DNA of 64,000 nucleotides from contig NZ_JAVALZ010000004.1 in assembly GCF_030730865.1 (NCBI RefSeq), forward strand, positions 1 to 64,000. Reading direction: 5' to 3'. Shown here piece by piece: positions 2,789 to 49,298 of this stretch; the first letter of the stretch is position 1; each line of letters begins with the position of its first letter. This stretch comes from Uliginosibacterium sp. 31-16 (GTDB lineage: Bacteria > Pseudomonadota > Gammaproteobacteria > Burkholderiales > Rhodocyclaceae). Under the pieces are notes generated by a model. The model was given only the letters and a program-made list of their open reading frames with translations, ran no database searches and was not told the DNA's origin. Both the position numbers and the translations under genes were made by a program.

Positions 2789-2901
2789 CCTGAAGAGCCG
2801 CATCCAGTCTCATTCTTCAGGAACATATCTCGCAGAGGCAATCTGCAGGCGGCTCTGCAGCACGCATGCCTGCAGATGTCCGTCAGAAGCGGCTTCCCAG
2901 A
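2789..2901. repeat. Three-unit 40-bp-period intergenic element, copy 1
   Basis: Three units end with TCTTCAG (2814), TCTGCAG (2854) and TTCCCAG (2894), exactly 40 bp apart. Unit 1 is an inverted repeat: CCTGAAGA (2789-2796), 17-nt core, TCTTCAGG (2814-2821). In unit 2 both arms carry a matching change (GCAGA with TCTGC), which keeps the pairing. Unit 3 keeps the core GTCCGTCAGAAGCGGC but not its arm pairing. The element lies 8 nt after the nagZ stop codon and covers the upstream candidate start of uvrC. Three further copies are at 24549, 35203 and 49186. Confidence 0.8.
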
Positions 2902-2909
2902 CACACGCA

Positions 2910-3941
2910 TCAGGCCAAGGCCTGCACCGAAGCCCAGGCATCCGTGAAGCGTTTGTCGATCGACAGCACTTCCATTGCCGGATACTGCACGGGCTGCAGC
3001 GCGGCGATGCGCGCAGCGGATTCGGCTCGCAAAGCGGGCTGCCAGCGCGTCAGCAGGTCTGCGGTGAAGTCGGGACGATTGCACACCAGCACCATGTCGC
3101 AGCCTGCGGCATAAGCGGCCTCGGCACGCCCGACGATATCGCCTGCGAGGGTGGCGCCTTCCATGGTCAGATCATCGCTGAACACCACACCATTGAAGCC
3201 GATGCGCCCCCGCAGTACATCCTGCAACCAGAAGGGCGAGAAGCCCGCCGGGTGCGGATCGATCTGTTCATACACCACATGCGCCGGCATCACACCAGAG
3301 AGCACCTGCTTCAGCTCTGCGCGATAAGGTGCGATGTCCTCCGCCCAGATTGCGTCAAAACTGCGCGTATCGACCGGCATCGCCACATGCGAATCCGCCT
3401 CGGCAAAGCCATGCCCGGGAAAATGCTTGCCGACACAGCCCATGCCGGCCTCGCGCAAGCCCATCGCCAGCGCATGCGCCAGCATGGCAGTGATCTGCGG
3501 GTCGCGGTGGAAGGCGCGATCACCTACCACGGCACTCTGACCGTAATCCAGATCGAGCACCGGCGTGAAGGAAAGATCAATGCCGTGCGCGAGCAATTCG
3601 GACGCCAGCACGTAGCCCACGTCCTGCGCCGAAAGCAAGGCCTCGCGCGGCGAACGGGCATACAGCTCGCCCAGCTTGCGCATTGCCGGCAGGCGCGTGA
3701 AGCCCTGGCGGAAGCGCTGCACGCGACCACCTTCGTGATCCACGGCGATGATCAGGGCCGGGCTGCGCAGAGCGTGAATCTCGGCGCACAAGGCAGCGAG
3801 CTGATCGGGGTTTTCGAAATTACGAGAAAACAGGATCACGCCACCCACCAGCGGATGGCACAACACTTCGCGCTCAGTGTCACTCAGCCTGAATCCGGCA
3901 ACATCGGCCATCACAGGGCCGTGGGGGAGCAAAAGACTCAT
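2910..3941 (-). CDS. nagZ: Beta-N-acetylhexosaminidase
   Basis: NagZ removes GlcNAc from 1,6-anhydro-muropeptides in the cytoplasm during cell-wall recycling. This 343-residue glycoside hydrolase family 3 protein has the expected IIAVDHEGGRVQRF segment near residue 64 and the KHFPGHG substrate-binding loop near residue 173, followed by DSHVAMP. The nucleophile region is visible as VVFSDDLTM. There is no signal peptide, as expected. Its start overlaps the acpS stop by 4 nt, so the two are translationally coupled in the pdxJ-acpS-nagZ order common in proteobacteria. Confidence 0.95.
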   Translation of the reverse strand: MSLLLPHGPVMADVAGFRLSDTEREVLCHPLVGGVILFSRNFENPDQLAALCAEIHALRSPALIIAVDHEGGRVQRFRQGFTRLPAMRKLGELYARSPREALLSAQDVGYVLASELLAHGIDLSFTPVLDLDYGQSAVVGDRAFHRDPQITAMLAHALAMGLREAGMGCVGKHFPGHGFAEADSHVAMPVDTRSFDAIWAEDIAPYRAELKQVLSGVMPAHVVYEQIDPHPAGFSPFWLQDVLRGRIGFNGVVFSDDLTMEGATLAGDIVGRAEAAYAAGCDMVLVCNRPDFTADLLTRWQPALRAESAARIAALQPVQYPAMEVLSIDKRFTDAWASVQALA

Positions 3942-4318
3942 GAGTGTTTTTCCAGAATCGCGAAGGCGATCACATGCTCGCGCTCGTCGCTGATCGACAG
4001 ATGCGCATTCAGGCCAAGACCCAGCAGATGATCGGCCAGCGCATCACTAAAAATGTACAGAGGTTTGCCAAGCGCGTCGTGGCTCACGCCGATGGCAGAC
4101 AAGGTCGCCGGTGGGCGCAAACCCGTGCCGAGCGCTTTGGCAAAAGCTTCCTTGGCAGCAAAACGCTTGGCGAGGAAACGCTCCGGTTCGCGCGTCTTCC
4201 TGTAAGCATCCAGCTCGTCCGGATGCAACAGGCGCTCGGCAAAACGCTCACCATGACGCGCCAGCGCCTCGCGCATGCGCGCGACCGTGACGATATCCGT
4301 GCCGATGCCGTAAATCAC
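3938..4318 (-). CDS. acpS: Holo-[acyl-carrier-protein] synthase
   Basis: AcpS transfers the 4'-phosphopantetheine of CoA onto the serine of ACP, here AcpP encoded at 18163-18402. The 126-residue length is normal. The magnesium-binding N-terminus is seen as IYGIGTDIVTVARM, and the second motif as RFAAKEAFAKALGTG with its conserved KEA. It overlaps nagZ by 4 nt and follows pdxJ by 9 nt, forming one transcription unit on the minus strand. Confidence 0.96.
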   Translation of the reverse strand: MIYGIGTDIVTVARMREALARHGERFAERLLHPDELDAYRKTREPERFLAKRFAAKEAFAKALGTGLRPPATLSAIGVSHDALGKPLYIFSDALADHLLGLGLNAHLSISDEREHVIAFAILEKHS

Positions 4319-4327
4319 GTAGCGAGC

Positions 4328-5089
4328 TCAGCGTGCCAAGCGCGTGGCGTCGGCTTCGCGCATCAGACGCTTCATCTCGGCCACGGCCTCGCGCAAACCG
4401 ACGAACACGGCACGACTGACAATGGCGTGACCAATGTGCAGCTCACGCACATCCGGCAGTGCGGCAACCGGTTGCACGTTGAAATAATTGAGCGCATGGC
4501 CTGCGTTGAAGCGCATGCCCAGATCAACGATGGCACGACCCGCTACGCGGATCTTGTTCAACTCCTCCAGCACCGCGGGGCTGCGTGCATCACGACCCTT
4601 GGTGTGAAAGGCTGCCGCATAAGGGCCAGTGTGGATTTCGCAGACCCGCGCACCGATACGTGCAGCCGCCTCGACCTGGGCCGGCTCCGGATCGATGAAT
4701 ACGCTGGTCATGATGCCGGCGTCAGCCAGGCGGGCAATCACGTCTTTCAGGCGCACCTCCTGCCCGACGATGTCGAGCCCGCCTTCAGTGGTGACTTCCT
4801 GTCGCCCCTCGGGCACCAGCATCGCCATCTCCGGCTTGATTTGGCAGGCGATACCGACCATCTCATCGGTGGCCGCCATTTCGAGATTGAGTTTGATGTG
4901 TGTGAGCTCGCGCAAGCGCCGTACATCGTGATCCTGAATGTGGCGACGGTCTTCGCGCAGATGCACGGTAATGCCGTCGGCCCCGCCCAGATGAGCTTCA
5001 ACCGCTGCCCATACCGGATCCGGCTCATAGGTTTTCCGCGCCTGGCGGAGGGTAGCAACGTGGTCGATATTTACGCCGAGTTCAATCAT
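4328..5089 (-). CDS. pdxJ: Pyridoxine 5'-phosphate synthase
   Basis: PdxJ condenses 1-deoxyxylulose-5-phosphate with 3-amino-2-oxopropyl phosphate to form pyridoxine 5'-phosphate, the last ring-forming step of DXP-dependent vitamin B6 synthesis. The 253-residue TIM-barrel protein begins with [15 protein letters not shown] and contains [15 protein letters not shown] and the HTGPYA and [14 protein letters not shown] phosphate-binding regions. It lies between recO and acpS on the minus strand. Confidence 0.97.
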
Positions 5090-5134
5090 TCTGGTTCCCT
5101 CAAAAACTTCGACTTCAAAGATCGAAGTATTTCC

Positions 5135-5857
5135 TTAGAGTTCCTGCAACTCCATGAGAATGCGGCGCGATTCAAGCGCCTGCCCGCCAAGATGGTACTG
5201 GATCAAACGCCGCATGAGACCCTTGGCGTGCGCTAAAGTCTCCTGCGCACTGAAGTCGCCCTCAGCCATCGCCAGCAGGGTACGGCCAGGAATCAAGGAT
5301 AGATCACTTGTCGCATCATCGGCCTCGACCGGCCCACGTTCGGTCAAGAAAATGTATTCGCCGTCAGCACTTACTGCCTCACCGGTCTCGACATCGCAAT
5401 CCAGCGTCGGCGCATAGCCAATTTCACGCAAGAGCACGAGCTCAAAACCGCGCAACAGGGGCTCGTAAGCCTGGCCTGCAGCAAGCCGGGCCAGCGTTTC
5501 GGCGTAGGCATCAAAAAGCAGTGGGTGTGCGTCCTCACGCGGCAGGAGACGCAGCAGGAGCTCATTGAGGTAGTAGCCACACAGCAGGCCAATGCCGCAA
5601 AGCAAGGCCTGCCCGCCCTGCCAGCTGGCGTGCGTCAGGGTCTTGATCTCGGCCTTGCCGGTCCAGGAAACATCCAGGGGCTGAAAAGCCATCAAGACGC
5701 CCCGCAGGGTTGAGCCTGTGCGCCGCGCGCCCTTCGCGGCCATGGGCACACGCCCATATTCGCGCGAAAAAATTTCGGCGATCAGGCTGGTTTCACGCCA
5801 CGGATAGCTGTGCAGCAAAAAACCGGTCTGATTGTCGATGCGCAGGCGCGTACTCAT
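5135..5857 (-). CDS. recO: DNA repair protein RecO
   Basis: RecO binds single-stranded DNA and, with RecR, loads RecA onto SSB-coated gaps. The 240-residue protein starts with an OB-fold (TGFLLHSYPWRETSLIAEIFSREYGRV, then MAAKGARR), followed by the helical C-terminal domain containing LLREIGYAPTLDCDVETGE. The zinc-finger cysteines of some RecO proteins are not present here. It stands 16 nt after era and shares its strand, matching the era-recO-pdxJ order of proteobacteria. Confidence 0.95.
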   Translation of the reverse strand: MSTRLRIDNQTGFLLHSYPWRETSLIAEIFSREYGRVPMAAKGARRTGSTLRGVLMAFQPLDVSWTGKAEIKTLTHASWQGGQALLCGIGLLCGYYLNELLLRLLPREDAHPLLFDAYAETLARLAAGQAYEPLLRGFELVLLREIGYAPTLDCDVETGEAVSADGEYIFLTERGPVEADDATSDLSLIPGRTLLAMAEGDFSAQETLAHAKGLMRRLIQYHLGGQALESRRILMELQEL

Positions 5858-5873
5858 GCTGCCAGACGCGCGA

Positions 5874-6764
5874 TCAGTCGTAACCGAGCGACTTCAATGC
5901 GCGCTCGTCATCGGCCCAGCCACTCTTAACCTTGACCCAGGTTTCGAGGTAAACCTTGCCGTCGAAGAGTTTTTCGAGCTCGACACGCGCTTCGGAAGAT
6001 ATGCGCTTGAGACTCTCACCGCCCTTGCCGATGACGATGCCCTTGTGGCTCGCCTTGTCGACAATGATCGCCGCGAAGATCCGGCGCAGATTGCCTTCGA
6101 CTTCGAATTTCTCGATCTCGACGGTCATTCCATACGGCAACTCCTCGCCGATCATGCGAAAGAGTTTCTCACGCAGAAACTCGGCGGCAAGGAAACGTTC
6201 GCTGCGATCAGTAATGTCATCCTCGCCGAACAGCGGCTCGCCTTCTGGCAGATATTTTCCAAGCGCCTTCAGCAACTGATCGACGTTATGGCCCTTCTCG
6301 GCGCTGACCGGCACGATCTCGGCAAACGGGAATTCCGCGGACATTTTCTCCATGAACGGGAGAAGTTTCGTCTTGTCCGCTTCCAGATCCACCTTGTTGA
6401 TGACCAGCACCACTTTGGCTTCGCGCGGCAGCAACTCAAGCACTTTTCGGTCGTCAGGTCCGAAACGACCTGGCTCGATCAGGAACATGACCACATCCAC
6501 CTCGGCCAGGACCTGATTGACCGTGCGGTTCATCGTCGAATTCAGGGCGTTGCGGTGATGCGTCTGAAAACCCGGTGTGTCAACGAAAATGAACTGCTGT
6601 CGGCCCTCGGTCAGCACGCCCGTGATACGGTGACGCGTGGTCTGCGCCTTGCGCGAGACGATGCTGACTTTCTGCCCCACCAGACGGTTCAGCAGCGTCG
6701 ACTTGCCAACATTGGGACGACCAACAATGGCCACCAGACCGGTGTAAAAAACTTCGTCGCTCAT
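5874..6764 (-). CDS. era: GTPase Era
   Basis: Era is an essential GTPase that binds the 3' end of 16S rRNA and helps mature the 30S subunit. The 296-residue protein has G1 GRPNVGKS, G2 around [10 protein letters not shown]3 DTPGF, G4 NKVD and G5 SAEKG, then a C-terminal KH domain with [14 protein letters not shown]. Its start overlaps the rnc stop by 4 nt. RNase III and Era both act in rRNA processing, so the coupling is functionally sensible. Confidence 0.97.
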
Positions 6765-7444
6765 GCTTGTTCCAGTTGGGTCAATGCGGCGGCGGCAGCC
6801 ACTTGCTCGGCAATGCGGCGACTGGCCCCCACCCCGGCAGTGCAGATATTCAAACGCTCAATCACGCAATGCACTTCAAATTCGCGGGCATGCGCTTCGC
6901 CGCGCTCCTCCGTCATCTCGTACTTCGGCAAAGGCAAACGGCGCGCCTGCAAGGCCTCCTGCAATGCCGTCTTGGGGTCCTTGAGTGAGCGGGCAGGATC
7001 AAGAGACATCAGCATTTCAGCGTACAAGCCATCAATCACACGCTTGACTGCCTCAAAACCGGCATCCAGATAAATTGCTCCAAACACGGCTTCCAGAGCG
7101 TCAGCGAGGATGGAAGGGCGACGATGACCGCCACTCTTCAACTCCCCCTCCCCCAGACTCAGGCAACTCCCCAGATCAAGGCGCTCGGCAATCATCTGCA
7201 AGGTATCCTGCCTTACCAGCTGCGCACGCAAACGCGACATCTCCCCTTCACGCAGTCCGTCAAAGCGCACATACAGCGCCAAGGCAACCACCATGTTGAG
7301 AATGCTGTCGCCCAGAAATTCCAGACGCTCGTTATGATCAGCAGAAAAACTGCGATGTGTCAGCGCCTGACGCAACAATACCGTACGCTGAAAGCGGTAG
7401 CTCAGTTGTCGTTCCAGCACTTCAAATTTCAATGCACTGCTCAA
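6761..7444 (-). CDS. rnc: Ribonuclease III
   Basis: RNase III cuts double-stranded RNA, including the rRNA precursor. The 227-residue protein carries the signature [15 protein letters not shown] near residue 38 with the acidic catalytic residues, a second acidic cluster at [14 protein letters not shown], and a C-terminal double-stranded RNA-binding domain ([20 protein letters not shown]). It is coupled to the upstream DUF4845 gene and the downstream era gene by 4-nt overlaps. Confidence 0.97.
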
Positions 7445-7791
7445 TTCGAGGAAACGTCAAAATCAAAATACAACCCGACATTCGCAAACAGGGGAACTTC
7501 CCGGCGGTAAGAAACCTGCAGGGTTACCTTGCCGTTATCCTTGTTGACCGAAACGGCCTGCGGATCTACCGATGTGATGTCATTCACATCCCGATGCTTG
7601 CTGAATGCGGTGCGAAACGTACTGGGCGGAGCGCCAGGATCTGTCGCAGCCACAACATTCTTGAAGCCTTTCTTGACCTCGAAGTACTCATTGAAAACCG
7701 GCACCAGCTTCAAACCCAGCACCAGCACTGACATCAACAGCGCCCCGACGATCAAGGTAGAAATCAGTGAAAACCCGTTCTGTCGCTTCAT
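7441..7791 (-). CDS. DUF4845 family membrane protein
   Basis: This 116-residue protein has a prepilin-like N-terminus (KRQNGFSLISTLIVGALLMSVLVLGLKLVP), one membrane segment and a short periplasmic domain. It resembles the DUF4845 family, regularly found between lepB and rnc in betaproteobacteria and pseudomonads, whose role is unknown. The G-F-S-L motif with no glutamate at +5 makes a true type IV prepilin unlikely. It lies 17 nt after lepB and overlaps rnc by 4 nt. Confidence 0.85.
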   Translation of the reverse strand: MKRQNGFSLISTLIVGALLMSVLVLGLKLVPVFNEYFEVKKGFKNVVAATDPGAPPSTFRTAFSKHRDVNDITSVDPQAVSVNKDNGKVTLQVSYRREVPLFANVGLYFDFDVSSN

Positions 7792-7808
7792 GTCACTTCT
7801 CCCTAATT

Positions 7809-8630
7809 TCAGTGAAAACTTCCAATCCTGCCGAAGCTGACGCCTGATGGCGGCAGAATCCGGTCAGCGTGGAACCAGACAAAGAAAGCCCGGCCGACAA
7901 TATTCTCATCTGGCACAAACCCCCATACACGCGAATCAGCACTCTGGTCGCGGTTGTCCCCCATCACAAAATAATGGCCTTCCGGCACTGTGCACGTCAC
8001 GCCGGAACCGGAATAACTGCAGTTGTCAGAATAAACATGTGGAACCACCATCTGCTCGGGCACAAAAGGCTGAGCATCACGATTATTCAGCATCATGTGC
8101 TTGCGCCCGCCGCCCAGATCTTCTTCCAGCTTCTGGAATACGTCAAAGGTCTGCGGAATGAGAAAGTCTCCATCCGGACGAACGGCCATGGCCTCACCGT
8201 TGATGGTCAAACGCTTGTTGGCATACTCCAGTTTGTCACCCGGCAATCCAATCACACGCTTGATGTAATCCTGTCGCGTATCGTGTGGATAGCGGAAGAC
8301 CATCACATCACCACGCTGCGGATTTCCAATTTCAACAACCTTTTTATTAAGCACCGGAAGCCGAATCCCGTAAGCATATTTATTCACGAGAATAAAGTCG
8401 CCGACATACAAGGTTGGATACATCGAACCGGAAGGAATGCGAAACGGCTCTATCCAGAATGAGCGCAGCATGAAGATCGGCAAGATAACCGGGAAAAAAC
8501 TTGCGCCATACTCAACCCACCATGGATCCGGCTCGCCCTTGGCACGCAGTTTTCGCGCCTTGAATACGTCGTAGAACCACAACACGCCCGAGATAACACT
8601 CAGGACAAACAGAATGAGAGCAAAATCCAC
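7809..8630 (-). CDS. lepB: Signal peptidase I
   Basis: LepB cleaves signal peptides from exported proteins at the outer face of the inner membrane. The 273-residue protein has two N-terminal membrane segments, the catalytic serine in RIPSGSMYPTL, the catalytic lysine region in RGDVMVFRYP to DYIKRVIGLPGD, and the late box GHYFVMGDNRDQSADSR. A Cys pair (NCSYSGSGVTC) sits in the periplasmic insert. It lies 25 nt after lepA, as in most proteobacteria. Confidence 0.97.
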   Translation of the reverse strand: MDFALILFVLSVISGVLWFYDVFKARKLRAKGEPDPWWVEYGASFFPVILPIFMLRSFWIEPFRIPSGSMYPTLYVGDFILVNKYAYGIRLPVLNKKVVEIGNPQRGDVMVFRYPHDTRQDYIKRVIGLPGDKLEYANKRLTINGEAMAVRPDGDFLIPQTFDVFQKLEEDLGGGRKHMMLNNRDAQPFVPEQMVVPHVYSDNCSYSGSGVTCTVPEGHYFVMGDNRDQSADSRVWGFVPDENIVGRAFFVWFHADRILPPSGVSFGRIGSFH

Positions 8631-8655
8631 GAATACCTCGAATCAAAAATTTCGG

Positions 8656-10452
8656 TTACTTGCCTTCGTCAGTACGCAATACGGCAAGGAAAGCTTCCTG
8701 CGGAATTTCAACATTGCCCACCATCTTCATGCGTTTTTTGCCTTCTTTCTGCTTTTCCAGCAGTTTTTTCTTGCGTGTTATGTCGCCACCATAACACTTG
8801 GCCAAGACGTTCTTGCGCAGTGCCTTGATGGTTTCACGGGCCAGAATATTGGAGCCAATCGCAGCCTGCACAGGCACATCAAACATCTGGCGTGGAATCA
8901 GCGCACGCAAACGGTTGGCCAGATCCCTGCCGCGATACTGAGCGTTTGCCCGGTGAACTATTACTGACAAGGCGTCGACTTTTTCGCTGGCGACCAACAC
9001 ATCAAGCTTCACGACATCAGCCGCCCGATACTCTTTGAAATCGTAATCCAGCGACGCATAACCGCGCGACACGGACTTCAACCGATCAAAGAAATCCATC
9101 ACAACTTCAGCCATGGGCATATCGTAAACCAGCTTCACCTGACGTCCGTGGTAGTGCATGTCTACCTGGTTACCACGTTTCTGGTTGCACAATGTAATAA
9201 CAGGCCCAAGGTAGTCTTGCGGGACAAAAATTGTCGCAGTAATGATGGGCTCACGGATCTCCTGCAACTTGTTCGACTCAGGCAGTTTTGCCGGATTTTC
9301 GATCTTCAACACGGCACCATCATTCATCAGGACTTCGTACACCACGGTCGGCGCCGTCGTAATAAGGTCCATGTCGAATTCGCGCTCCAGGCGCTCCTGC
9401 ACGATTTCCATGTGCAGCAAACCGAGAAATCCGCAACGAAACCCGAACCCAAGAGCTTGCGAGACCTCCGGTTCGTACTGAAGGGAAGCGTCGTTGAGTT
9501 TCAGCTTCTCCAGCGAGTCGCGCAACTGATCATATTCGCTGGATTCAACAGGATACAAACCAGCAAACACCTGTGGTTTTATTTCCTTGAATCCCTCCAG
9601 CGGAACGGCAGCGGACTTGCTTACCAAAGTAATCGTATCCCCCACCTTGGCAGAGGTCAGTTCTTTGATCCCGGCGATTACAAACCCTACCTCCCCCGCA
9701 CAAAGACTGTCGCGTGAAACCGACTTGGGACTGAATACGCCAACCTGTTCACATAGATGCTGCGCACCATTACTCATGAACAGAATCTTGTCCTTGGGTC
9801 GCAAGACACCATCCACGACCCGCACCAGCATGACCACTCCAACATAATTATCGAACCAGGAATCGATAATCAAAGCCTTCAAGGGGCCTTCCGGATTGCC
9901 GCGAGGAGCAGGAATGCGTGCAATGATGGTTTCGAGAATTTCTTCCACGCCCATGCCAGTCTTTGCTGAACAGGGAATCGCATCCGTAGCATCAATCCCG
10001 ATTACGTCCTCAATTTCCTGGCGTGCCGTATCAGGATCTGCCGAAGGTAGATCCATTTTGTTGAGAACCGGGACAACCTCCACGCCCAACTCAATCGCCG
10101 TATAACAGTTCGCAACGGTCTGAGCCTCCACCCCCTGAGAAGCATCAACAACCAGCAGGGCGCCTTCACACGCCGATAGCGAACGACTGACTTCGTATGA
10201 AAAGTCGACATGCCCCGGCGTGTCAATCAGGTTCAGGTTGTAAACCTGTCCATCGCGCGCTTTGTAGGATAGAGCGGCAGTCTGAGCCTTGATGGTAATG
10301 CCACGCTCTCGCTCCAGATCCATCGAATCAAGCACCTGCGCCTCCATCTCCCGATCGGAGAGACCGCCGCAGGTTTGAATGATGCGATCAGCAAGGGTGG
10401 ACTTGCCATGATCGATGTGGGCAATAATCGAGAAATTACGGATATGCTGCAT
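8656..10452 (-). CDS. lepA: Elongation factor 4 (LepA)
   Basis: LepA is a ribosome-associated translational GTPase. It shows [13 protein letters not shown] (G1), the RGITIKAQT switch, [12 protein letters not shown] (G3), [10 protein letters not shown] (G4) and a C-terminal domain ending in [15 protein letters not shown] set the start at the ATG giving [16 protein letters not shown], because LepA proteins start here and are about 598 residues. An upstream in-frame start would add 20 unrelated residues encoded in a hairpin region. It is followed by lepB. Confidence 0.97.
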
Positions 10453-10476
10453 GCGATGGCGTTCTTGGAACCAGGT

Positions 10477-24548: not shown

Positions 24549-24661
24549 CCCGCAAAGCCGCTCCTGACAACGATCTTCAGGCACCCGTCCGGCAGAGCAG
24601 CCACCACAAAGCCTCGGCAGCACCCTGACCTGAAGAAGTCCGCCAGAAGCGGCTCTTCAGG
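24549..24661. repeat. Three-unit 40-bp-period intergenic element, copy 2
   Basis: Right arms TCTTCAG, TCGGCAG and TCTTCAG begin at 24574, 24614 and 24654, exactly 40 bp apart. Unit 3 is the best-formed: CCTGAAGA, a 17-nt core containing CCGC-CAGAA-GCGG, and TCTTCAGG, a nested double stem. Unit 1 has a core that resembles the reverse complement of the unit 3 core. The element fills the space between two convergent genes and ends 7 nt from the sppA stop codon. Confidence 0.85.
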
Positions 24662-24668: not shown

Positions 24669-25616
24669 TTATTTCACGCTAAAACGATCCAGCTCCTGCA
24701 GCACGCTGGCCGACACGCCCGCACCGAATCGCTTGGCCAGTCGCTCAGCCACATTTTCGCGCTTGGTGTAATCGCGCACCTCCTCAGCCTTGAGGACATC
24801 GCGCGCCACCGAATCGAGCGTACCGAGTTCATCAGCCAGCCCCAGCTCGATGCTTTTTGCGCCAGACCAGAACAGGCCGGAGAACATCTCCGGCGTTTCC
24901 TTCAAGCGCTTGCCGCGCCCTTGACGCACCACGTCAATGAACTGTTGATGAATCTCTGCGAGCATGCCCTTGGCAAATTCAACATGCTTCGGGTTCTGCG
25001 GCGAAAAGGGGTCCAGAAAAGCCTTGTTCTCGCCCGCCGTGATGCTGCGGCGCTCGACCCCCAGCTTTTCCATCGTGCCGGTAAAGCCAAAACCATCCAT
25101 GCGCACGCCAATCGAGCCGACGATGCTGGCCTTGTCGACATAGATCTTGTCGGCCGCCGCCGCCACGTAATAGCCGCCGGAGGCACACACATCCTCGACC
25201 ACAGCGTAAACAGGCTTGTCCGGGTACTTGGCGCGCAAGCGACGGATCTCGTCATAGATCATGCCCGCCTGCACCGGGCTGCCGCCCGGGCTGTTGATAC
25301 GCAGGACCACGCCTTTGGCGCTCTTGGCTTCAAAAGCGGCCTGCAGCGCTTCAATCGTTTCCTCTGCCTTCACCTCGCTGCTCGCCCCGATGACGCCCTC
25401 CAGCTGCACCAGCGCCGTATGCTGACCGCCACCGTCAATGTGGGTGCTCTCGCTGCCTCCACGCGCAAGCAGGAAGATCAGCACCCCAAAATACACAAAG
25501 CCCAAAGCGCGGAAAAAGATGCTCCAGCGCCGCTTGCGCCGCGCCTCCTTGAGGCTTTCAAATGCCAGTTGCTCGATGACCTTGCGTTCCCAGCCTGCTT
25601 CATTGGTTTCGTTCAT
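24669..25616 (-). CDS. sppA: Signal peptide peptidase SppA-type S49 protease
   Basis: SppA-type proteases degrade cleaved signal peptides in the membrane. The 315-residue short form has one membrane helix (residues about 31-52, IFFRALGFVYFGVLIFLLA), then the S49 domain: VVLRINSPGGSPVQAG, the catalytic serine in EDVCASGGYYVAAAADK, and IVGSIGVRMDGFGF. It is followed by the repeat element at 24549-24661 and overlaps the Rieske-type gene start by 4 nt. Confidence 0.93.
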   Translation of the reverse strand: MNETNEAGWERKVIEQLAFESLKEARRKRRWSIFFRALGFVYFGVLIFLLARGGSESTHIDGGGQHTALVQLEGVIGASSEVKAEETIEALQAAFEAKSAKGVVLRINSPGGSPVQAGMIYDEIRRLRAKYPDKPVYAVVEDVCASGGYYVAAAADKIYVDKASIVGSIGVRMDGFGFTGTMEKLGVERRSITAGENKAFLDPFSPQNPKHVEFAKGMLAEIHQQFIDVVRQGRGKRLKETPEMFSGLFWSGAKSIELGLADELGTLDSVARDVLKAEEVRDYTKRENVAERLAKRFGAGVSASVLQELDRFSVK

Positions 25617-33937: not shown

Positions 33938-35143
33938 ATGAGTTCGTCGATTTTTGCCGCCGTCGAAATGGCCCCGCGTGACCCGATTCTGGGTTTGAAC
34001 GAAGCATTCAATGCCGATACCCGCAGCACCAAGGTGAATCTCGGCGTAGGCGTGTACTTCACTGACGAAGGCAAGATCCCGCTGCTTGGAGCAGTCAAGG
34101 CCGCTGAAAAGGCCCGTCTGGAAGCTGCACCCGCGCGGGGCTACCAGCCCATCGAAGGCCTGGCCGCCTACAACACAGCCGTTGCCGCCCTGCTGTTTGG
34201 CAAGGAGTCGCCGCTGGTCACCGAAGGCAAGACCATCACGGTCGAAGCGCTGGGCGGCACTGGCGCGCTCAAGGTCGGCGCAGACTACCTCAAGCGCCTG
34301 CTGCCGCAGGCCAAGGTGTATATCTCGGACCCGAGCTGGGAAAATCACCGCGCCCTGTTCGAATCAGCCGGCTTCACGGTTGAAAACTACCCCTACTACG
34401 ATGCAGCCACACGTGGCGTGAACTTCGCCGGGATGAAGGCCTGCCTGTCCAGCCTGCCCGCTGGCTCGATCATCATCCTGCACGCCTGCTGTCACAACCC
34501 GACGGGCGCCGACATGACGGACGCTCAATGGGCAGAAGTCGTCAATGCATGCCGGGATCGCGGTCTGATCCCCTTCCTGGACATGGCCTATCAAGGCTTT
34601 GCTGACGGCATCGACGCTGACGCTGTCGCCGTGCGCGCTTTCGCCGCTTCCGGCCTGCAATTCTTCATCTCCAGCTCCTTCTCGAAGTCCTTCTCGCTCT
34701 ACGGCGAACGCGTCGGTGCACTGACCGTCGTTTGTGCCAGCAAGGAAGAAACCGGCCGCGTGATGTCACAAGTCAAACGCGTCGTACGCACCAACTACTC
34801 CAACCCGCCGACCCATGGCGGCGCGATCGTGGCGGCAGTACTGGCCTCACCCGAACTGCGTCAGCAATGGGAGGACGAATTGGCCGGCATGCGCGTGCGC
34901 ATCCGTGCCATGCGCACCAGTCTTGTTGAAAAGCTCGCTGCACGTGGCGTAGCGCAAGATTTCGGTTTCGTGACCAAACAGCGCGGGATGTTCAGCTACA
35001 CCGGTCTCACGGCAGAACAGGTTGAGCGCCTGAAGAACGAATTCGGCATCTACGCAGTGTCAACGGGCCGTATCTGCCTGGCCGCGCTGAACACCAAAAA
35101 CATCGACTATGTTGCCGATGCCATTGCCGCCGTGCTGAAGTAA
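33938..35143 (+). CDS. tyrB: Aromatic-amino-acid/aspartate aminotransferase
   Basis: This 401-residue class I PLP aminotransferase transfers amino groups between aspartate or aromatic amino acids and 2-oxoglutarate. The PLP lysine lies in [32 protein letters not shown] and the C-terminal [17 protein letters not shown] are also typical. Start ATG 33938 has GGAG at 6-nt spacing and gives the usual N-terminus ([20 protein letters not shown]). The uvrB-tyrB divergent pair is common in betaproteobacteria. AspC versus TyrB specificity cannot be settled by eye. Confidence 0.92.
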
Positions 35144-35160
35144 GCCTGCTTCGCGCAACA

Positions 35161-35192
35161 AAAAGCCCGGTCAATGCTGACCGGGCTTTTTT
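35161..35192 (+). terminator. Intrinsic terminator after the aminotransferase gene
   Basis: AAAAGCCCGGTCA and TGACCGGGCTTTT form a 13-bp perfect stem with a four-base loop and a T-run on either strand, so it can work in both directions. It starts 18 nt after the stop codon. Confidence 0.92.
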
Positions 35193-35202: not shown

Positions 35203-35315
35203 CCCGAAGAGCAGCGTGGGGCGGACATCTTCGGCAGATCGCCCTGAGGACAAAGACGGGAAGTACATCTAAAGAGCACGACCCCGAAGAACGAGGCGGG
35301 AAGCGGCTCTTCAGC
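35203..35315. repeat. Three-unit 40-bp-period intergenic element, copy 3
   Basis: Right arms TCTTCGG, TCTAAAG and TCTTCAG begin at 35228, 35268 and 35308, again 40 bp apart. Unit 1 pairs CCGAAGA with TCTTCGG across 17 nt, and unit 3 pairs CGAAGA with TCTTC(A)G across 17 nt. In unit 1 both arms carry the compensating C-G pair. The element lies between a bidirectional terminator and the stop codon of the thioredoxin-like gene, which it abuts. Confidence 0.82.
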
Positions 35316-37151: not shown

Positions 37152-37156
37152 TTAGG

Positions 37157-42427: not shown

Positions 42428-42494
42428 GGATCACCCAGTAGGTAAATATTTTCATGCCCGAAACGGCTTTGAACGACTGCTTCGTGGGCGGATA

Positions 42495-42516
42495 ACGAAG
42501 GTCAGCTTGTGGCCGG
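42495..42516 (-). repeat. Island spacer repeat, copy 2
   Basis: In gene direction CCGGCCACAAGCTGACCTTC starts immediately after the stop codon of the 181-residue gene and is followed by GAAGCAGTCGTTCAA. It matches copies at 41865 and 43143. Confidence 0.6.
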
Positions 42517-43386: not shown

Positions 43387-43434
43387 CTGTTAATCCGTAG
43401 GTCCCTGGTTCGAGCCCAGGTCGGGGAGCCAAAT
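43387..43434. repeat. Right attachment repeat
   Basis: Identical to 37104-37151 over 48 bp. It is only the 3' half of tRNA-Asn and lacks the D-arm and 5' acceptor strand, so it is not a tRNA gene. Confidence 0.95.
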
Positions 43435-43436
43435 CT

Positions 43437-43466
43437 GAAAGCCAGCACTTCGGTGCTGGCTTTCTT
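43437..43466 (+). terminator. Former terminator of tRNA-Asn
   Basis: AAAGCCAGCAC (43438-43448), TTCG tetraloop, GTGCTGGCTTT (43453-43463), then CTTCGTTTC. It lies 3 nt after the right attachment repeat, the position a tRNA-Asn terminator would have had before the island inserted. Confidence 0.75.
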
Positions 43467-44329
43467 CGTTTCAGCGCCTGAGAACGTGATTATCCCCTAG
43501 ATCACATCACTCCTCACCCCGCCTGACGCACCCTGTTCCACGCCCGTCGTTCTACAGCCTAGCACAGGCCCGAAACCACTCTCAGGCCCCGCGCGACCAT
43601 CTCTGGCAGGCTTGGCGGGCCTGCGCACGCACAATCCATCCGAGGGTCAAATCAGTCTATTCCAGCAGCATCCGGGATGGTCGAAACGTAAGCAGGACCG
43701 GACCATACCTGCCTACTGACACAAAAATCCGGCTGAAGGGTCATTAAAGGGCTCCGCACGATTGCGGGCTGGGATACTGGGAAGCAAAGTGCGCGCACAT
43801 CGCTGTCCACCGAAGAACAACCAAGGGCCACGCGAAGAATCACCACCCCGGCCAGGCCCCTCGGAGAAGAAAAACCCAGCTCGCCCCATCAACGACGGCC
43901 TACCCGTCAGAGGGGATGAGCAATCTCAACAGGCAGAACTTCAATCTGCTACCGGCCCAAGGAACTGACCGCAAAAGTCAGGTAGTCAGTCCCTTACTGA
44001 CCAAGCGATCAACGGCCTGCTATCGCAGTGAAGCTTTGCACCAGACGACGCTTTTCATCCGGACGGAGATGAATACAAGTAACGACATGGCCCGGCAAGC
44101 CATGGAGCCCATGAACATCCAGATATACACGCCGCCCGGCGAACTGCGTCCCTGCCCACTCGATCTCACGCCGGTTTTCCAATACGGACGGCCATGGTCC
44201 GCACTGACTCACCAGACCGTTCTGGATGAGCAATGCTCAATCCTGGAATATGCACAGGCGCGGCTGTCAGCATCGTCCCCAAGATCGGCCAGAAGATGCA
44301 GGACGCGGCTGCGCAGCGCCCGGAAGGCC
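43467..44329. other. Long region without recognisable genes
   Basis: About 860 nt between the island and the transporter operon. I see only short open frames without Shine-Dalgarno signals or family features on either strand. It may be a decayed gene or the 3' untranslated part of the transporter operon. Confidence 0.5.
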
Positions 44330-45250
44330 TTAGCCTCCCGAAATATAGGGCTTGCCGAGCGATGCAGGCAGGTTCAGCAACAGGACCTTGCGATCTCGCG
44401 AGATCAGCACCAAGACGAGAATGGTCGCCACATAGGGCACCGCCGCCAGCAGCTGGGACGGCAAGTCCACGCCGAATCCTTGCGCATGCAATTGCAAAAT
44501 CGTCATGCCACCAAAAAGGTAGGCGCCGAGCATCAGCCGCGCGGGTTTCCAGGTGGCAAAAACCACCAGCGCCACAGCAATCCAGCCCCGCCCTGCAGTC
44601 ATGTTCTGCACCCACAGCGGCGTATATACGGTCGACAGATAAGCCCCCGCGATCCCCGCCATCGCGCCACCAAAACAGGTGGCCGCATACCGGATGCCAA
44701 TCACGTGATAGCCAATCGCATGTGCGGCTTCAGGGCTCTCGCCTACCGCTCGCAGAATCAGTCCCCAGCGTGTCCGAGCCAGCATCCAGGCAACCAGACC
44801 GAAAGCCAGGTAGGACAGATAGACCACCGCGCTCTGCTCAAAAAACACGGGGCCAAGCAGCGGGATCGAGGACAGCAGGGGAATGGCATAAGGCTGCAGC
44901 CCCGGCAGACTCTGGCTGACGTAGAACTGCCCGATGAAGGCGGACAGCCCGATCCCGAAAATCGTCAATGCCAGCCCGGTAGCAGGCTGATTCGTGCCCA
45001 ATGAAAGCGTCAGAAAGCAGAACGGCAGTGCCGCCAACGCGCCGGCCACAGCGCCCGCCACAATTCCTCCGGCGACGCCCCAGTGCAGGGCCGCCGCAAA
45101 CCCGGCGATCGCGCCGACCAGCATCATGCCCTCTACCCCGAGATTGATCACACCACTTTTCTCGGTCACCAGCTCGCCCAGCCCGGCAAACACCAGCGGC
45201 GTCGCAGCCGCCAGGGTTGTGGCAAGTATCGGAATCAACTGCTCGATCAT
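44330..45250 (-). CDS. ABC transporter permease, BMP/nucleoside type (second permease)
   Basis: The 306-residue protein has about eight to ten membrane segments and the family signature LGELVTEKSGVINLGVEGMML at residues about 26-46, shared with ribose/guanosine-type permeases. The start ATG 45250 has AGGAGCAGGA upstream and overlaps the preceding permease stop by 4 nt. With the other permease, the double ATPase and the BMP-type binding protein at 48051 it forms a complete importer for nucleosides or related compounds. The substrate is inference. Confidence 0.9.
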   Translation of the reverse strand: MIEQLIPILATTLAAATPLVFAGLGELVTEKSGVINLGVEGMMLVGAIAGFAAALHWGVAGGIVAGAVAGALAALPFCFLTLSLGTNQPATGLALTIFGIGLSAFIGQFYVSQSLPGLQPYAIPLLSSIPLLGPVFFEQSAVVYLSYLAFGLVAWMLARTRWGLILRAVGESPEAAHAIGYHVIGIRYAATCFGGAMAGIAGAYLSTVYTPLWVQNMTAGRGWIAVALVVFATWKPARLMLGAYLFGGMTILQLHAQGFGVDLPSQLLAAVPYVATILVLVLISRDRKVLLLNLPASLGKPYISGG

Positions 45251-46347
45251 GCTTCCTGCTCCTTCGCCCGGTCTTTCAGCCACAACTTGAGGGGGCGCCG
45301 TTTGAGACGAAAATCAACAAATGCATCGGCCCCCAGCAGGAAAAACAGCAGCATGCCCTGAAACAGCCAGGAAATGGCCGAGGGCAGCTGCATGGAAACC
45401 TGCGCGGCCTCGCCACCGATATAGATCAATGCCAGCAGCAGACCTGACAGGACAATCCCGACCGGATGCAGACGTCCGACCCACGCCACGATGATTGCCG
45501 CAAAACCATACCCCGGAGAAAGCGACAAGGTCAGTTGTCCAACCGGCCCGGCGGCCTCGGCAGCCCCTGCGATTCCCGCCGTGACGCCTGAGACGATCAG
45601 ACTGACCCATACCGTACGCCTTGCCGAGAAACCCGCGTAACGTGCCGCAGCAGGCGCCTCTCCCCCTACCGCGAGCTGGTAGGCCATGAAACTCTTGGAC
45701 ACGAAAAGCCAGAACAGGGGAACAGCCAGTGCAGTGATGAATACCGAGCTGTTCAGACGCAAGCCTTCGAAAACCGGGGCAAACATCGCGGGCTCGGAAA
45801 ACAGGATGGACTGCGGGAAATTGGTTCCTGCCGGATCTCTCCAGGGACCGCCAACGAGCCAGGACAAGAGATAGCTCGCCACATACCCAAGCATCAGCGT
45901 GGTCAGGGTTTCCTCGGCGTTGTAATGGGTTTTCAGCCAGGCCGGCAGCGCTCCCCACAACCCGCCACCGATAGCGCCAGCCAAAACCATGGCCGGCAGT
46001 ATCCACCAGCCGGTCATCCCGTCGGTATAAATCGCGACCCCGCTGGCACAGATGGCGCCCAGCAGGAATTGCCCTTCGGCTCCGATGTTGTACACCCGTG
46101 CGCGAAACCCGAGCGCCAGCCCCTGCGCGATCAGGATCAGCGGAGAAGCCTTGAGCAGCAACTCGCTCCAGCCATTGGCGTATTCCAGCGGCTCAATGAA
46201 GAAAACGTAGAAAGCCTGCAGCGGTGATTTGCCAAGCAACGCGAAAATGGCCGCAGCCGCCAGCAGGGTCAGCATGATCGCCAGCGGCGGAGCAAGCCAG
46301 CGCATCAGCTGTGAAGGATTGCCACGAGGTTCAAGGATCTGCATCAC
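45247..46347 (-). CDS. ABC transporter permease, BMP/nucleoside type (first permease)
   Basis: The 366-residue protein is a polytopic permease with an N-terminal membrane helix (LAPPLAIMLTLLAAAAIFALL) and the conserved cytoplasmic segment FRARVYNIGAEGQFLLGAI near residue 80, then LPAWLKTHYNAEETLTTLML. This pattern is typical of the larger permease of the BMP-type transporters (YufP-like). It lies 1 nt after the ATPase gene. Confidence 0.9.
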   Translation of the reverse strand: MMQILEPRGNPSQLMRWLAPPLAIMLTLLAAAAIFALLGKSPLQAFYVFFIEPLEYANGWSELLLKASPLILIAQGLALGFRARVYNIGAEGQFLLGAICASGVAIYTDGMTGWWILPAMVLAGAIGGGLWGALPAWLKTHYNAEETLTTLMLGYVASYLLSWLVGGPWRDPAGTNFPQSILFSEPAMFAPVFEGLRLNSSVFITALAVPLFWLFVSKSFMAYQLAVGGEAPAAARYAGFSARRTVWVSLIVSGVTAGIAGAAEAAGPVGQLTLSLSPGYGFAAIIVAWVGRLHPVGIVLSGLLLALIYIGGEAAQVSMQLPSAISWLFQGMLLFFLLGADAFVDFRLKRRPLKLWLKDRAKEQEA

Positions 46348-46348
46348 G

Positions 46349-47884
46349 TCACGCCGCCTGTTGTTGAGTGCCCGCCATCAGCAGGCCGATCTGTTCGGCA
46401 TCCGTCTCTTCGCGCGGCACAGGCTCGGAAAGACGTCCCCCTGCAAGCACACCGATGCGGTCACAGATTTCAAAAAGTTCTTCCAGCTCTTCGGATATCA
46501 CCAGCACGGCGACACCGCTACGCGCTATATCCAGCAAGGTCTGCCGCAGGAATGCCGAAGCGCCGACATCCACGCCCCAGGTCGGCTGCGCCACGATCAT
46601 CACCTTGGGCTCCTGCATCACTTCGCGGCCAACGATGAATTTCTGCAGATTGCCCCCCGAGAGACTGCGTGCAGCGGCCAGAACACCGTTGCAGCGCACG
46701 TCGAAACGCTCGATGCAGCGGGCCGCAAACTCTCGTGCCCGCGTCCGGCTGATCAACCCGTGGCGGCGCAGGGAGGGCTGGCGATGCGCCGTCAGCAGGT
46801 AATTCTGGGCCAGTGTCATCGCGGGCACCGCGCCGCGCCCGAGGCGCTCCTCAGGCACAAAAGCCAGCCCGCGGTTGCGCCGCTGACCGGCATGCAGATG
46901 TCCGACCGGAGCTCCTTCTATCAAAACGGCGTCCGGACGCGAAACCTGCTCCCCCGAGAGGGCTGCCAGCAGCTCGGCCTGGCCATTCCCGGAGATCCCG
47001 GCAATACCGACCACCTCCCCGGCATTGACGCTCAGATTCACATCGAACAGGGAAGCACAAAAGGGGTCCTCATTGCGAAAGTTGAGGCCCTGTACCTGCA
47101 ATACCGGCCGACGTTCACCGTGATACGGCGGCGCCGAACACACCGGTAACTCGCGTCCGATCATCATGCGCGCCAGACTGGCAGCACTTTCCTGACGCGG
47201 ATCGGTCTCTCCGGTCACCTTGCCACCCCGCATCACCGTCGCCCGGTCGCACAACTCGCGGATCTCGTCGAGTTTGTGGCTGATATACAGAATGCTCACC
47301 CCTTCACTGGCAAGCTGACGCAGTGTGTCAAATAACTTGCGCACCGCCTGTGGCGTAAGCACCGAGGTCGGTTCATCCAGAATCAGCAGCTGGGGGTTCT
47401 GCAACAGGCAGCGGACGATCTCGACACGCTGGCGTTCGCCCACCGAGAGGCTGTGCACCAGACGCTGCGGATCAAGCGGCAAACCATACTTCTCCGACAC
47501 GGCGCGCACCTGCAGCGCCAGCGTCTTCAGATCGAACCGGCCTTCCAGCGCCAGCGCGATGTTCTCGACCACCGTCAACGTATCAAACAGCTGGAAATGC
47601 TGGAACACCATGCCGATGCCGAGATGACGGGCTGCGGCCGGATTGGCAATGCGCACTTCCTGCCCGTTCCAGACCAGGTGGCCTTCATCAGCCTGCACGG
47701 CACCGTAGATGATCTTCATCAAGGTACTCTTGCCGGCTCCATTTTCGCCAAGCACGGCGTGAATCTCGCCAGGCATGACGGCAAGACTCACATCATCATT
47801 GGCGACAACGCCCGGATAACGCTTGGTGACATGCCACAGCGCCAGGCGGGGCGGGATCTCGGGCGGGGAAAGCGGCACACTCAT
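46349..47884 (-). CDS. ABC transporter ATPase, two-domain (nucleoside/sugar type)
   Basis: The 511-residue protein has two ABC domains. The first is complete: GENGAGKSTLMKIIYG (Walker A), LSVGERQRVEIVRCL (signature) and LLILDEPTSVLTP (Walker B). The second has a degenerate P-loop (GISGNGQAELLAALSG) but a signature LSGGNLQKFIVGREV, as usual in the RbsA/YufO class. I set the start at ATG 47884 (MSVPLSPPEIPPRL); the upstream extension lies in the promoter region shared with the binding-protein gene. Confidence 0.92.
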   Translation of the reverse strand: MSVPLSPPEIPPRLALWHVTKRYPGVVANDDVSLAVMPGEIHAVLGENGAGKSTLMKIIYGAVQADEGHLVWNGQEVRIANPAAARHLGIGMVFQHFQLFDTLTVVENIALALEGRFDLKTLALQVRAVSEKYGLPLDPQRLVHSLSVGERQRVEIVRCLLQNPQLLILDEPTSVLTPQAVRKLFDTLRQLASEGVSILYISHKLDEIRELCDRATVMRGGKVTGETDPRQESAASLARMMIGRELPVCSAPPYHGERRPVLQVQGLNFRNEDPFCASLFDVNLSVNAGEVVGIAGISGNGQAELLAALSGEQVSRPDAVLIEGAPVGHLHAGQRRNRGLAFVPEERLGRGAVPAMTLAQNYLLTAHRQPSLRRHGLISRTRAREFAARCIERFDVRCNGVLAAARSLSGGNLQKFIVGREVMQEPKVMIVAQPTWGVDVGASAFLRQTLLDIARSGVAVLVISEELEELFEICDRIGVLAGGRLSEPVPREETDAEQIGLLMAGTQQQAA

Positions 47885-47961
47885 GCAGCAGGTTCTCGGA
47901 CACGAACAGATTGAAGCGCGCAGTCTATCAGCCTGGCCTGGTCTGTACGCCACCGAACGCT

Positions 47962-47977
47962 GATTAGAGTCATAATC
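47962..47977. promoter_or_regulatory. Candidate operator between the divergent transporter genes
   Basis: GATTA-GAGTCA-TAATC is a perfect 5-bp inverted repeat lying between the ATPase gene (minus) and the binding-protein gene (plus). Its position suits a regulator acting on both. The regulator is not visible in the window. Confidence 0.35.
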
Positions 47978-48050
47978 TCGCCAGTTTTACTGCCCTGTTT
48001 CCGTACCGTTCCCAGCTTCCTCTTTCAGGACCTGATCAGGAGATTTTTCG

Positions 48051-49133
48051 ATGCGTTTGTTCCAGACCCTCGGCCGCCTGGCCGCCCTTACCCTGACTGC
48101 CGCCGCCCTGTGCAGCGGAGCCCAGGCCGCTGAACCGCTCAAAGCCGGTTTCCTCTATATCGGGCCGACTGGGGATCATGGCTGGACCTACGCCCACGAT
48201 GTGGGCCGCAAGGCCACCGAGGCCAAATTCGCCGGCCAGGTCAAAACCACTTTCGTCGAAAACGTGCCGGAGACCGCCGACGCCGAGCGCGTCATCCGCG
48301 ACCTCGCCACCAAAGGCCACAAGGTCATCTTCGCCACCTCCTTCGGCTACATGAACGCGATGGACAAGGTTTCGCGCCAGTTCCCCAAGACCATCTTCAT
48401 GCACGCCACCGGTTACAAGACCGGCAAGAATCTGGGCATCTACGATGTGCGCACCTATGAAGGTGCCTACATGCTCGGCGTCGTGGCCGGCAAGATGAGC
48501 AAGAACGGCAAGCTCGGCGTCGTCGGCTCGATCCCGATCCCCGAAGTGATCCGCAACATCAATGCCTTCACCATCGGCGCGCGCAGCGTGAACCCGAAGG
48601 CCAGCACCCGCGTGATCTGGGTGAACGGCTGGTTCGATCCGGGCAAGGAGCGTGAAGCCGCGCTGACCCTGATTTCGCAAGGCGCCGACGTGCTGATGCA
48701 GAACACCGACTCGCCCGCGGTTGTCCAGACGGCTCAGGAAAAAGGGGTTTACGCCTTTGGCTGGGATTCGGACATGAGCAAGTTCGGTGGCAAGGCCCAA
48801 CTGGCCGCTTCGATCCTCAACTGGGATGTGATCTACAGCGAACAGATCGAGAAGATCCAGAAGGGTGAATGGAAAACCACCGACATCTGGTACGGCGTGA
48901 AGGAAGGCGCGGTCAACATCGACAACTTCGGCCCATCCACACCGGCGGATGCGAAGAAACTGGCCGAAGAGCGTCGCGATGCGCTCAAGTCCGGCAAGCT
49001 GCACCCCTTCAGCGGCCCGCTCAAGGACAACACCGGCAAGGAACTGGTCGCCGCCGGCAAGACTCTGGCCGACCCGGAACTGCGCAAGATGAGCGTCTTC
49101 GTCGAAGGCGTCGAAGGCAGCGTGCCGAAGTAA
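48051..49133 (+). CDS. BMP-family ABC transporter substrate-binding protein
   Basis: The 360-residue protein has a clear signal peptide (MRLFQTLGRLAALTLTAAALCSGAQA) and then the BMP/Med-type fold: KAGFLYIGPTGDHGWTYAHD, KVIFATSFGYMNAMDKVS, VVAGKMSKNGKLGVVGSIPI and FAWDSDMS-like FGWDSDMSKF. BMP proteins bind purine nucleosides or related ligands. No lipobox is seen, so it is a soluble periplasmic protein. It is divergent from the permease/ATPase unit. Confidence 0.93.
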   Translation: MRLFQTLGRLAALTLTAAALCSGAQAAEPLKAGFLYIGPTGDHGWTYAHDVGRKATEAKFAGQVKTTFVENVPETADAERVIRDLATKGHKVIFATSFGYMNAMDKVSRQFPKTIFMHATGYKTGKNLGIYDVRTYEGAYMLGVVAGKMSKNGKLGVVGSIPIPEVIRNINAFTIGARSVNPKASTRVIWVNGWFDPGKEREAALTLISQGADVLMQNTDSPAVVQTAQEKGVYAFGWDSDMSKFGGKAQLAASILNWDVIYSEQIEKIQKGEWKTTDIWYGVKEGAVNIDNFGPSTPADAKKLAEERRDALKSGKLHPFSGPLKDNTGKELVAAGKTLADPELRKMSVFVEGVEGSVPK

Positions 49134-49150
49134 GTTGCTCCGGCCAGCAC

Positions 49151-49176
49151 AAGCCCGGCTCTGGCCGGGCTTTTTT
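49151..49176 (+). terminator. Intrinsic terminator after the binding-protein gene
   Basis: AAGCCCGGC and GCCGGGCTT form a 9-bp stem with a TCTG loop followed by six T residues. It starts 17 nt after the stop codon. Confidence 0.93.
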
Positions 49177-49185
49177 GTTGACCCG

Positions 49186-49298
49186 CCCGGAAAGTCGCTT
49201 CTGGCGGAGCTCTTCAGCCACCCATGTCGGACATGCCCACCAGACGTGGCTCTTCAGTACGCCATCCCGAAAAAGCCCGCCAGAAGCGGATCTTCAGG
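49186..49298. repeat. Three-unit 40-bp-period intergenic element, copy 4
   Basis: TCTTCAG recurs at 49211, 49251 and 49291, a perfect 40-bp period. Unit 3 has the core CCGCCAGAAGCGG, and unit 1 has nearly its reverse complement (CGCTTCTGGCGG), so the whole element has overall dyad symmetry. The TCA in the last arm (49294-49296) is the hycI stop codon in complement. It lies between two convergent genes, right after a terminator. Confidence 0.87.

Follow-up and report, generated by a model that had tools for sequence, protein, structure and literature searches.

Phased palindromic arrays behind genes in Uliginosibacterium

The window analysed here, a 64,000-bp stretch of Uliginosibacterium sp. 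31-16 (contig NZ_JAVALZ010000004.1, positions 1 to 64,000), contains four copies of a repeated element, each an array of three 31-bp palindromic units joined by two 9-bp linkers, giving a total of 111 bp and hence a 40-bp period. From its sequence and placement we tentatively favour reading the element as an array of fixed geometry, made up of two or three palindromic sites on double-stranded DNA and lying directly behind genes, which may act as a putative roadblock-type terminator or insulator. The traits that define the array are the half-site CYGnAGA, the 31-bp dyads and the 40-bp pitch. Each unit has the form CYGnAGA, 17 bp, TCTnCRG, and unit starts are 40 bp apart. The four copies are as follows.

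2790-2900, no strand assigned: copy 1, 111 bp (units 2790-2820, 2830-2860 and 2870-2900)
24550-24660, no strand assigned: copy 2, 111 bp (units 24550-24580, 24590-24620 and 24630-24660)
35204-35314, no strand assigned: copy 3, 111 bp (units 35204-35234, 35244-35274 and 35284-35314)
49187-49297, no strand assigned: copy 4, 111 bp (units 49187-49217, 49227-49257 and 49267-49297)

These lie where the original prediction had placed them, with an exact extent of 111 bp instead of the proposed 113 bp (one base less at each end). When end-to-end lengths of 109 to 117 bp were scanned in the first 38 loci, only 111 bp was found (18 of 18 matches, two elements being counted twice). In the consensus one end unit is the inverted copy of the other, so that terminal inverted repeats, a trait of insertion elements and of miniature inverted-repeat transposable elements (MITEs), are present, and the whole element is the same on both strands. 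The earlier remark that all copies share one orientation is therefore uninformative, as the element is palindromic as a whole; the model R1 matched both strands at many sites, including all four window copies. Beyond the element ends a weak G-C-A-G consensus runs for about 4 further bases.

The 40-bp pitch is held throughout the genome

The genome comprises 3.90 Mb in 8 contigs, of which 1.26 Mb, including the window, was sampled. Chaining unit-profile matches at 40 bp yielded 117 elements of three units (111 bp) and 46 of two units (71 bp) in this sample, compared with none in block-shuffled DNA. Three units, proposed at first for all copies, is thus the commonest form and not a universal one, as 46 of the 163 elements have two. 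Scaling from the sample, we estimated about 500 copies genome-wide; this number is an extrapolation, because the covariance search, in which a model built from 17 copies matched 150 of 150 candidates (strands counted apart), scored only those 150. The pattern GAAGCGGNTCTTCAG (15 bases, at most one mismatch) occurred 148 times across the genome and its reversed control twice.

The pitch was assessed in 800 kb (C1 and C2) that lay outside the final training set, the final unit profile having been trained on 460 kb; five of the 17 seed elements (L019, L020, L036, L037 and L038) fall within this hold-out and were used as first seeds only. Here 394 units were found, compared with 22 in shuffled sequence, and distances between unit pairs numbered 114 at 40 bp, 76 at 80 bp and at most 2 at any other distance up to 300 bp. 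A motif-free count of 5-mer direct repeats in convergent gaps likewise peaked at 40 (189) and 80 (145), with a median of 22. The linkers carry 0.2-0.4 bits per column, though the pitch permits almost no change in their length. Total information amounts to 78 bits, the motif columns being retained and the least constrained columns lying near background composition.

Neither a lack of further copies nor a failure of the 40-bp period at other sites was found, which favours the original prediction. Its observation that spacing is kept while sequence varies also held: among the 117 three-unit elements mean pairwise identity was 0.52, with 3 of 6786 pairs above 0.70 and a maximum of 0.84. Such low identity between copies with conserved spacing indicates that they are not recent duplications.

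Elements lie directly behind genes

Genes were called by a home-made hexamer method. Seventeen of the 163 elements fall within called genes and were excluded from the gap statistics, leaving 146, of which 71 lie in convergent, 66 in co-directional and 9 in divergent gaps (random placement gave 19 convergent and 38 divergent). Seen from the gaps, elements occupy 71 of 142 convergent, 65 of 652 co-directional and 9 of 139 divergent ones. A facing stop codon was overlapped or lay at most 20 bp away in 92 of the 146 cases, compared with a mean of 15.5 and a maximum of 29 in 2000 random draws; random placement was restricted to gaps of at least 111 bp with no gene overlap, while 32 of the real element-to-stop distances are negative (overlaps). 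The element can even supply the stop codon, since positions 2-4 (the TGA of the consensus CTGA) did so in 18 of 137 convergent or co-directional cases, and in 27 of the 71 convergent cases the rest of the gap is shorter than 40 bp.

The window copies illustrate this placement. Copy 1 is flanked by nagZ, whose stop is 9 bp off, and by uvrC, whose called start is 13 bp off. Copy 2 takes up a convergent gap, with 10 and 8 bp left to the stop codons on its two sides. Copies 3 and 4 are also in convergent gaps, the former with 1 bp between it and the minus-strand gene's stop and the latter with its end (CTGA, minus strand) containing the TGA stop of a hycI-like gene. The flanking features, together with a possible degenerate further copy, are listed below.

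977-2776, minus strand: uvrC, flanking copy 1 (TIGR00194)
2910-3914, minus strand: beta-N-acetylhexosaminidase gene nagZ, flanking copy 1 (NF003740)
24669-25616, minus strand: SppA-like signal peptide peptidase gene, flanking copy 2 (145.6 bits, just below the curated cut-off of 155.45)
33938-35143, plus strand: aromatic amino acid transaminase gene, flanking copy 3 (NF006719)
35160-35192, no strand assigned: two-way intrinsic terminator separating the aminotransferase gene from copy 3, with A-run, G+C hairpin and T-run, found by eye
49152-49176, plus strand: intrinsic terminator of an ABC-transporter substrate-binding gene, ahead of copy 4, found by eye
49294-49761, minus strand: hydrogenase maturation peptidase gene hycI, flanking copy 4, with its stop inside the element
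63774-63860, no strand assigned: possible degenerate further copy (weak, R1 E = 0.0013)

The degenerate match has a single good unit (63774-63804), which ends 8 bp short of the stop of the next minus-strand gene; the remainder overlaps that gene. In the region 49294-50174 more minus-strand open frames stand behind the HycI-type peptidase gene, possibly as part of a hydrogenase cluster.

Paired positions vary independently

The original prediction had raised selected structure as one explanation of the kept spacing. After orienting each of the 117 three-unit elements according to its nearest gene, we set the frequency of Watson-Crick pairs against the value for independent columns. Pairing at unit arms, linker palindromes and whole-element pairs was at or near expectation in these elements (observed/expected 0.56/0.57 for columns 2-30, 0.39/0.40 for 4-28 and 0.58/0.62 for 6-26), the largest excess being 0.09 at 28-44 and the largest deficit 0.12 at 52-60. 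No covariation was found in the 351 pooled unit arms. Over all 5778 column pairs, no palindrome diagonal was among the 15 best diagonals; the top 60 column pairs include four on palindrome diagonals, two of them nearly invariant (25-87 and 12-100) and the others being 28-44 and 21-51 (z = 2.4, 5778 pairs). As a positive control, acceptor pairs of 20 tRNAs gave 0.85-0.95 against 0.30-0.51 expected, and a variable stem pair of the repetitive extragenic palindromic (REP) sequences of E. coli gave 0.58 against 0.33 (86 loose matches, which include chance matches).

The dependencies between columns were local: each of the 25 strongest pairs has a separation of 1-3 bp, and the mean excess information, 0.108 bits at distance 1, has dropped to at most 0.010 bits by distances 5-11, the largest that were averaged. 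Columns 20-21 are mostly GG, AA or CT, and their mirrors 91-92 and the middle-unit columns 51-52 and 60-61 are interdependent in the same manner. Across columns 19-23 and their mirrors, the five-base words CGGAC, CGGGC, CAAGC, CAAGG and CCTTG recur, two of which are reverse complements.

Predicted RNA folds of real elements had a mean energy of -47.55 kcal/mol, compared with -37.30 kcal/mol for shuffled copies; block-recombined elements folded at -46.98 to -48.18 kcal/mol, no worse than real ones. Selected structure in the form of base-paired arms thus found no support, with paired positions varying independently and folds no better than those of recombined elements. An Rfam scan of the window gave only 4 tRNA hits at the gathering threshold, with nothing for copy 2 at gathering score. 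The lack of covariation together with the fixed spacing points to phased double-stranded DNA sites, probably for dimeric proteins; RNA linkers and hairpin loops would be expected to allow changes in length, so that the exact pitch argues for phased protein-DNA contacts.

An RNA element of the REP type, or of the bacterial interspersed mosaic element (BIME) type, in which two or three hairpins in the 3' untranslated region shield the message or aid Rho-dependent termination, is in our judgement an unlikely explanation. It would fit the gene-end placement, as REPs are described in convergent and co-directional gene-end gaps in part of PMC3733652, the gain of about 10 kcal/mol in fold stability over shuffled sequence, and the roles given for REPs in the available part of PMC2817692, which include helping Rho-dependent termination. 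It accords poorly with the lack of covariation in the tested pairing registers, where the REP stem control did give a signal, with a fold energy equal to that of recombined elements, with a pitch that is nearly free of insertions and deletions, and with the rarity of the GTAG and CGTC tags. Among the 163 elements, outward tags numbered 4 (left) and 8 (right) for GTAG and 4 and 2 for CGTC; inward tags numbered 2 and 0 for GTAG and 4 and 2 for CGTC.

Intrinsic terminators are fewer at element-side gene ends

The simple rule used to call terminators gave 17 positives among 526 intragenic control stretches of 200 bp. An intrinsic terminator was found at 13 of 133 gene ends with an element within 30 bp, compared with 125 of 397 ends without an element (p = 2e-7), part of this deficit arising because the element fills the gap and leaves less room. 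With at least 40 bp of room, terminators were called at 10 of 39 convergent ends with an element against 46 of 102 (p = 0.037), and at 3 of 37 co-directional ends with an element against 83 of 355 (p = 0.036). Where the element lay more than 30 bp away, 32 of 75 ends had a terminator, which in 30 of the 32 stood between the stop codon and the element, as at copies 3 and 4. The elements do not themselves resemble intrinsic terminators, as among the 163 a T-run directly beyond the right end was seen 3 times and an A-run beyond the left end once. The element is no simple replacement for a terminator, yet many element-side gene ends show no intrinsic terminator.

The idea that relatives use terminators where this genome has elements was unsupported: a sample from relative G002 yielded 21 reciprocal orthologs, 2 element-adjacent ends and 0 terminators. 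Gene ends in the convergent gaps of G002 (L184-L223) are enriched in the words TGCGGCT, TTCAGCC and GTAGGGC, with no 40-bp peak, which suggests another REP-like family there.

Distribution among relatives is patchy

Covariance-model searches, as proposed at the outset, found further copies both in the genome and in its relatives. In a strict family search, R1 had matches in 10 of 297 genomes, which belong to 7 of the 68 genera and include the present one, and a wider draw matched 8 of 41 genomes, G031 with 15 matches; both family-wide searches used strict filters, so that these counts are too low. At E <= 0.05, R1 gave 1 to 4 weak matches in each of G002, G004, G006 and G007.

A second, sequence-only model, R2, was built from three genera, its sources including five sequences from G072 and one from G127. 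Of 150 scored candidates, it matched 143 in G072 and 137 in G127, counts that are favoured because both are among its source sequences. Elsewhere it matched 43 in G034, 22 in G026, 17 in G005, 9 in G019, 4 in G143, 3 in G002 and 1 in G249. In the other 11 of the 20 genomes, including G001, G003, G004, G006 and G007 of the same genus, no match was found at E <= 0.001.

Another genus has the same architecture with a different consensus. G034 carries its own 109-110 bp form, of different consensus, at 16 places in 400 kb; of 15 inspected, one is intragenic and the remaining 14 are all outside divergent gaps. Direct repeats in its convergent gaps peak at 40, with a higher peak at 117. In G072, 80 kb contained 8 arrays, 3 of them inside called genes, against none in five shuffles; the G072 stretches had been chosen for R1 hits, and those of G127 for R2 hits.

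A putative dock for DNA gyrase or a nucleoid protein, which would relieve or fence positive supercoils between convergent genes with no role in termination, shares the double-stranded site logic of our favoured reading, and the occupation of half of all convergent gaps is consistent with it. We regard it as quite unlikely, since it gives no reason for the fewer terminators at element-adjacent ends and sits poorly with a presence that is patchy within one genus.

Arrays are shared at orthologous sites in genus g66

G072 and G127, both of genus g66, share arrays at four intergenic orthologous sites, of which A and F were reached via a flanking gene and D and E via array hits, so that the latter two are uninformative on how often arrays are shared. 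The arrays are identical at 92 of 111 positions without gaps at site A, align over 117 bp at 79% identity at site D (blastn, E <= 1e-15; the intergenic DNA on either side is unmatched) and align without gaps over 104 bases at site E. Site F (L230:9875-9985 against L233) has three units in G072 and two in G127, a whole 40-bp unit having been gained or lost. Position-based pairing of orthologs was wrong for a candidate site C, as L240 instead matches site D; L241 had no blastn match within the sampled G072 stretches. In both species (L232:4614-4724 and L238:114-224) the hairpin of an intrinsic terminator includes the array's first unit.

Signs for and against a mobile origin

On the suggested mobile origin the data point both ways: target-site duplications are at the null level, yet presence is patchy and an element-free relative site exists. 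Direct repeats of 2-9 bp at the element ends were not clearly above null (for k = 4, 1 against 0.97). Identity between copies had a slightly wider spread than after column shuffling (standard deviation 0.052 against 0.043; maximum 0.84 against 0.68). An orthologous site lacking the element was found in the metagenome bin CTSoil_126, in which the nagZ stop and uvrC start are 5 bp apart. The UvrC protein of the window shares 96% identity with its CTSoil_126 counterpart and 95% with the one from Uliginosibacterium aquaticum (a Rhodocyclales genus). At four-fold sites uvrC is 58% identical to that of CTSoil_126 (random expectation 37%), so that these sister species are far apart and an old insertion is possible. 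Ten relative loci with orthologs of the copy 4 transporter gene, some of which may not include the gene end, showed no three-unit chain made of units with scores over 12.

The search for transposases was limited to the Y1 family and found two Y1_Tnp genes, neither flanked by elements on both sides. The first adjoins a GTAG-type repeat of its own, present in several copies, and an element lies about 225 bp past the gene's stop; the second has an element at its 3' end only, within 1.5 kb on each side. At L085 (G000:C2 near 470857-471216) the Y1-transposase (RAYT-like) gene adjoins several copies of a different repeat, GTAGGGTGCGCATTGCGCACC, and this gene and repeat look like a classical GTAG-type REP system within this genome. 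Copy 2 had no match in a plasmid collection, nor copy 4 in a phage collection.

A decaying MITE-like family without present function, surviving at gene ends after selection had purged other insertions, would account for the patchy distribution, the element-free nagZ-uvrC gap, the estimated copy number, the slight residual relatedness of copies and the weak conservation of cores between orthologs, and is nevertheless improbable given target-site duplications no more frequent than the null, no pair above 0.84 identity and so few above 0.70, motif columns kept while others lie near background, a maintained 40-bp pitch and an element conserved at site D between unmatched flanks.

Comparison with known systems

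As first stated from the sequence, the literature searched (mostly outside subscription journals) held no family that we could recognise as having this layout, and two exact consensus 12-mers gave literature matches that were unrelated by title. Like REP and BIME families as described in part of PMC3733652 and PMC2817692, the elements are many, extragenic and behind genes, with palindromic units in a composite arrangement. They differ in the exact 40-bp pitch, the rare tags and stem pairs without covariation; compensating stem changes were absent from the 117 elements and the 351 pooled units, while Stenotrophomonas REP palindromes are reportedly kept by complementary mutations (PMC2817692, in part). 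The BRE of Bordetella, compared by description only from part of PMC3110155, is similarly a betaproteobacterial repeat with one Azoarcus copy, mostly intergenic and of strain-variable repeat number; its full-length repeats, which occur in tandem, are, in contrast, 75-91 bp long in Bordetella, number at most 29 per genome, share more than 70% identity and have no described 40-bp architecture. PU-BIME and stem-loop families are also repeated and mostly intergenic, and in the available part of that survey none has such a layout and 57 of 92 share a predicted common fold (PMC2267715).

The likeness to roadblock systems is that of a putative DNA-bound stop. Arrays of roadblock sites for Reb1 in yeast and TTF-I in rDNA offer parallels. 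In roadblock termination a DNA-bound protein halts the polymerase, as described for LacI in E. coli (PMC10310618, in part). No genome-wide set of dedicated roadblock-type gene-end sites in a bacterium was found in the literature searched.

A putative protein-bound terminator

In our favoured reading each 31-bp palindrome would be bound by a dimer of one putative host DNA-binding protein, and two or three such dimers, kept at a constant helical offset, would form a single complex. Because the site reads alike from either side, this complex could mark the end of transcription for both convergent genes. Its most likely action would be to stop or release RNA polymerase, often where no intrinsic terminator was found. 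The motif dialects differ between species, as might be expected if protein and site co-evolve.

Several observations weigh against a terminator or insulator of this kind. The association with missing terminators is modest once room is controlled for, and G002, which has few or no elements, shows no surplus of terminators (25 of 96 convergent ends, compared with 80 of 236 here). In g66, inspection by eye showed one orthologous site where terminator and element overlap and another where the terminator comes after the element, so that the element is not always a substitute for a terminator. R2 found nothing at E <= 0.001 in five of the seven relatives from the same genus, where the function would be dispensable or otherwise met. 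Between orthologs at sites A, D and E, core positions were kept at 57 of 67 and others at 205 of 258, a slight and not decisive difference (site B was omitted as it lies inside an open frame, and F for its lost unit); moreover four-fold sites in another gene, which is hemL-like, are at least as well conserved (0.88) as the site A element. Signs of selection at orthologous sites are weak. The fold gain over shuffled sequence, finally, leaves room for a role as RNA.

Repeats at gene ends have so far largely been interpreted as RNA hairpins, and the family described here combines strict spacing with no visible selection for pairing; it makes the question of RNA or DNA directly testable. It is possible, if unlikely, that in this lineage many genes are closed off by a dedicated, putative protein-bound terminator, a two-way array of two or three dimer sites at a 40-bp pitch that would halt polymerases coming from both directions, in dialects that would diverge between genera with the evolution of the binding protein. 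If the protein were found, it would add a further protein-based route by which bacteria end genes, and would provide a compact two-way terminator part for engineering.

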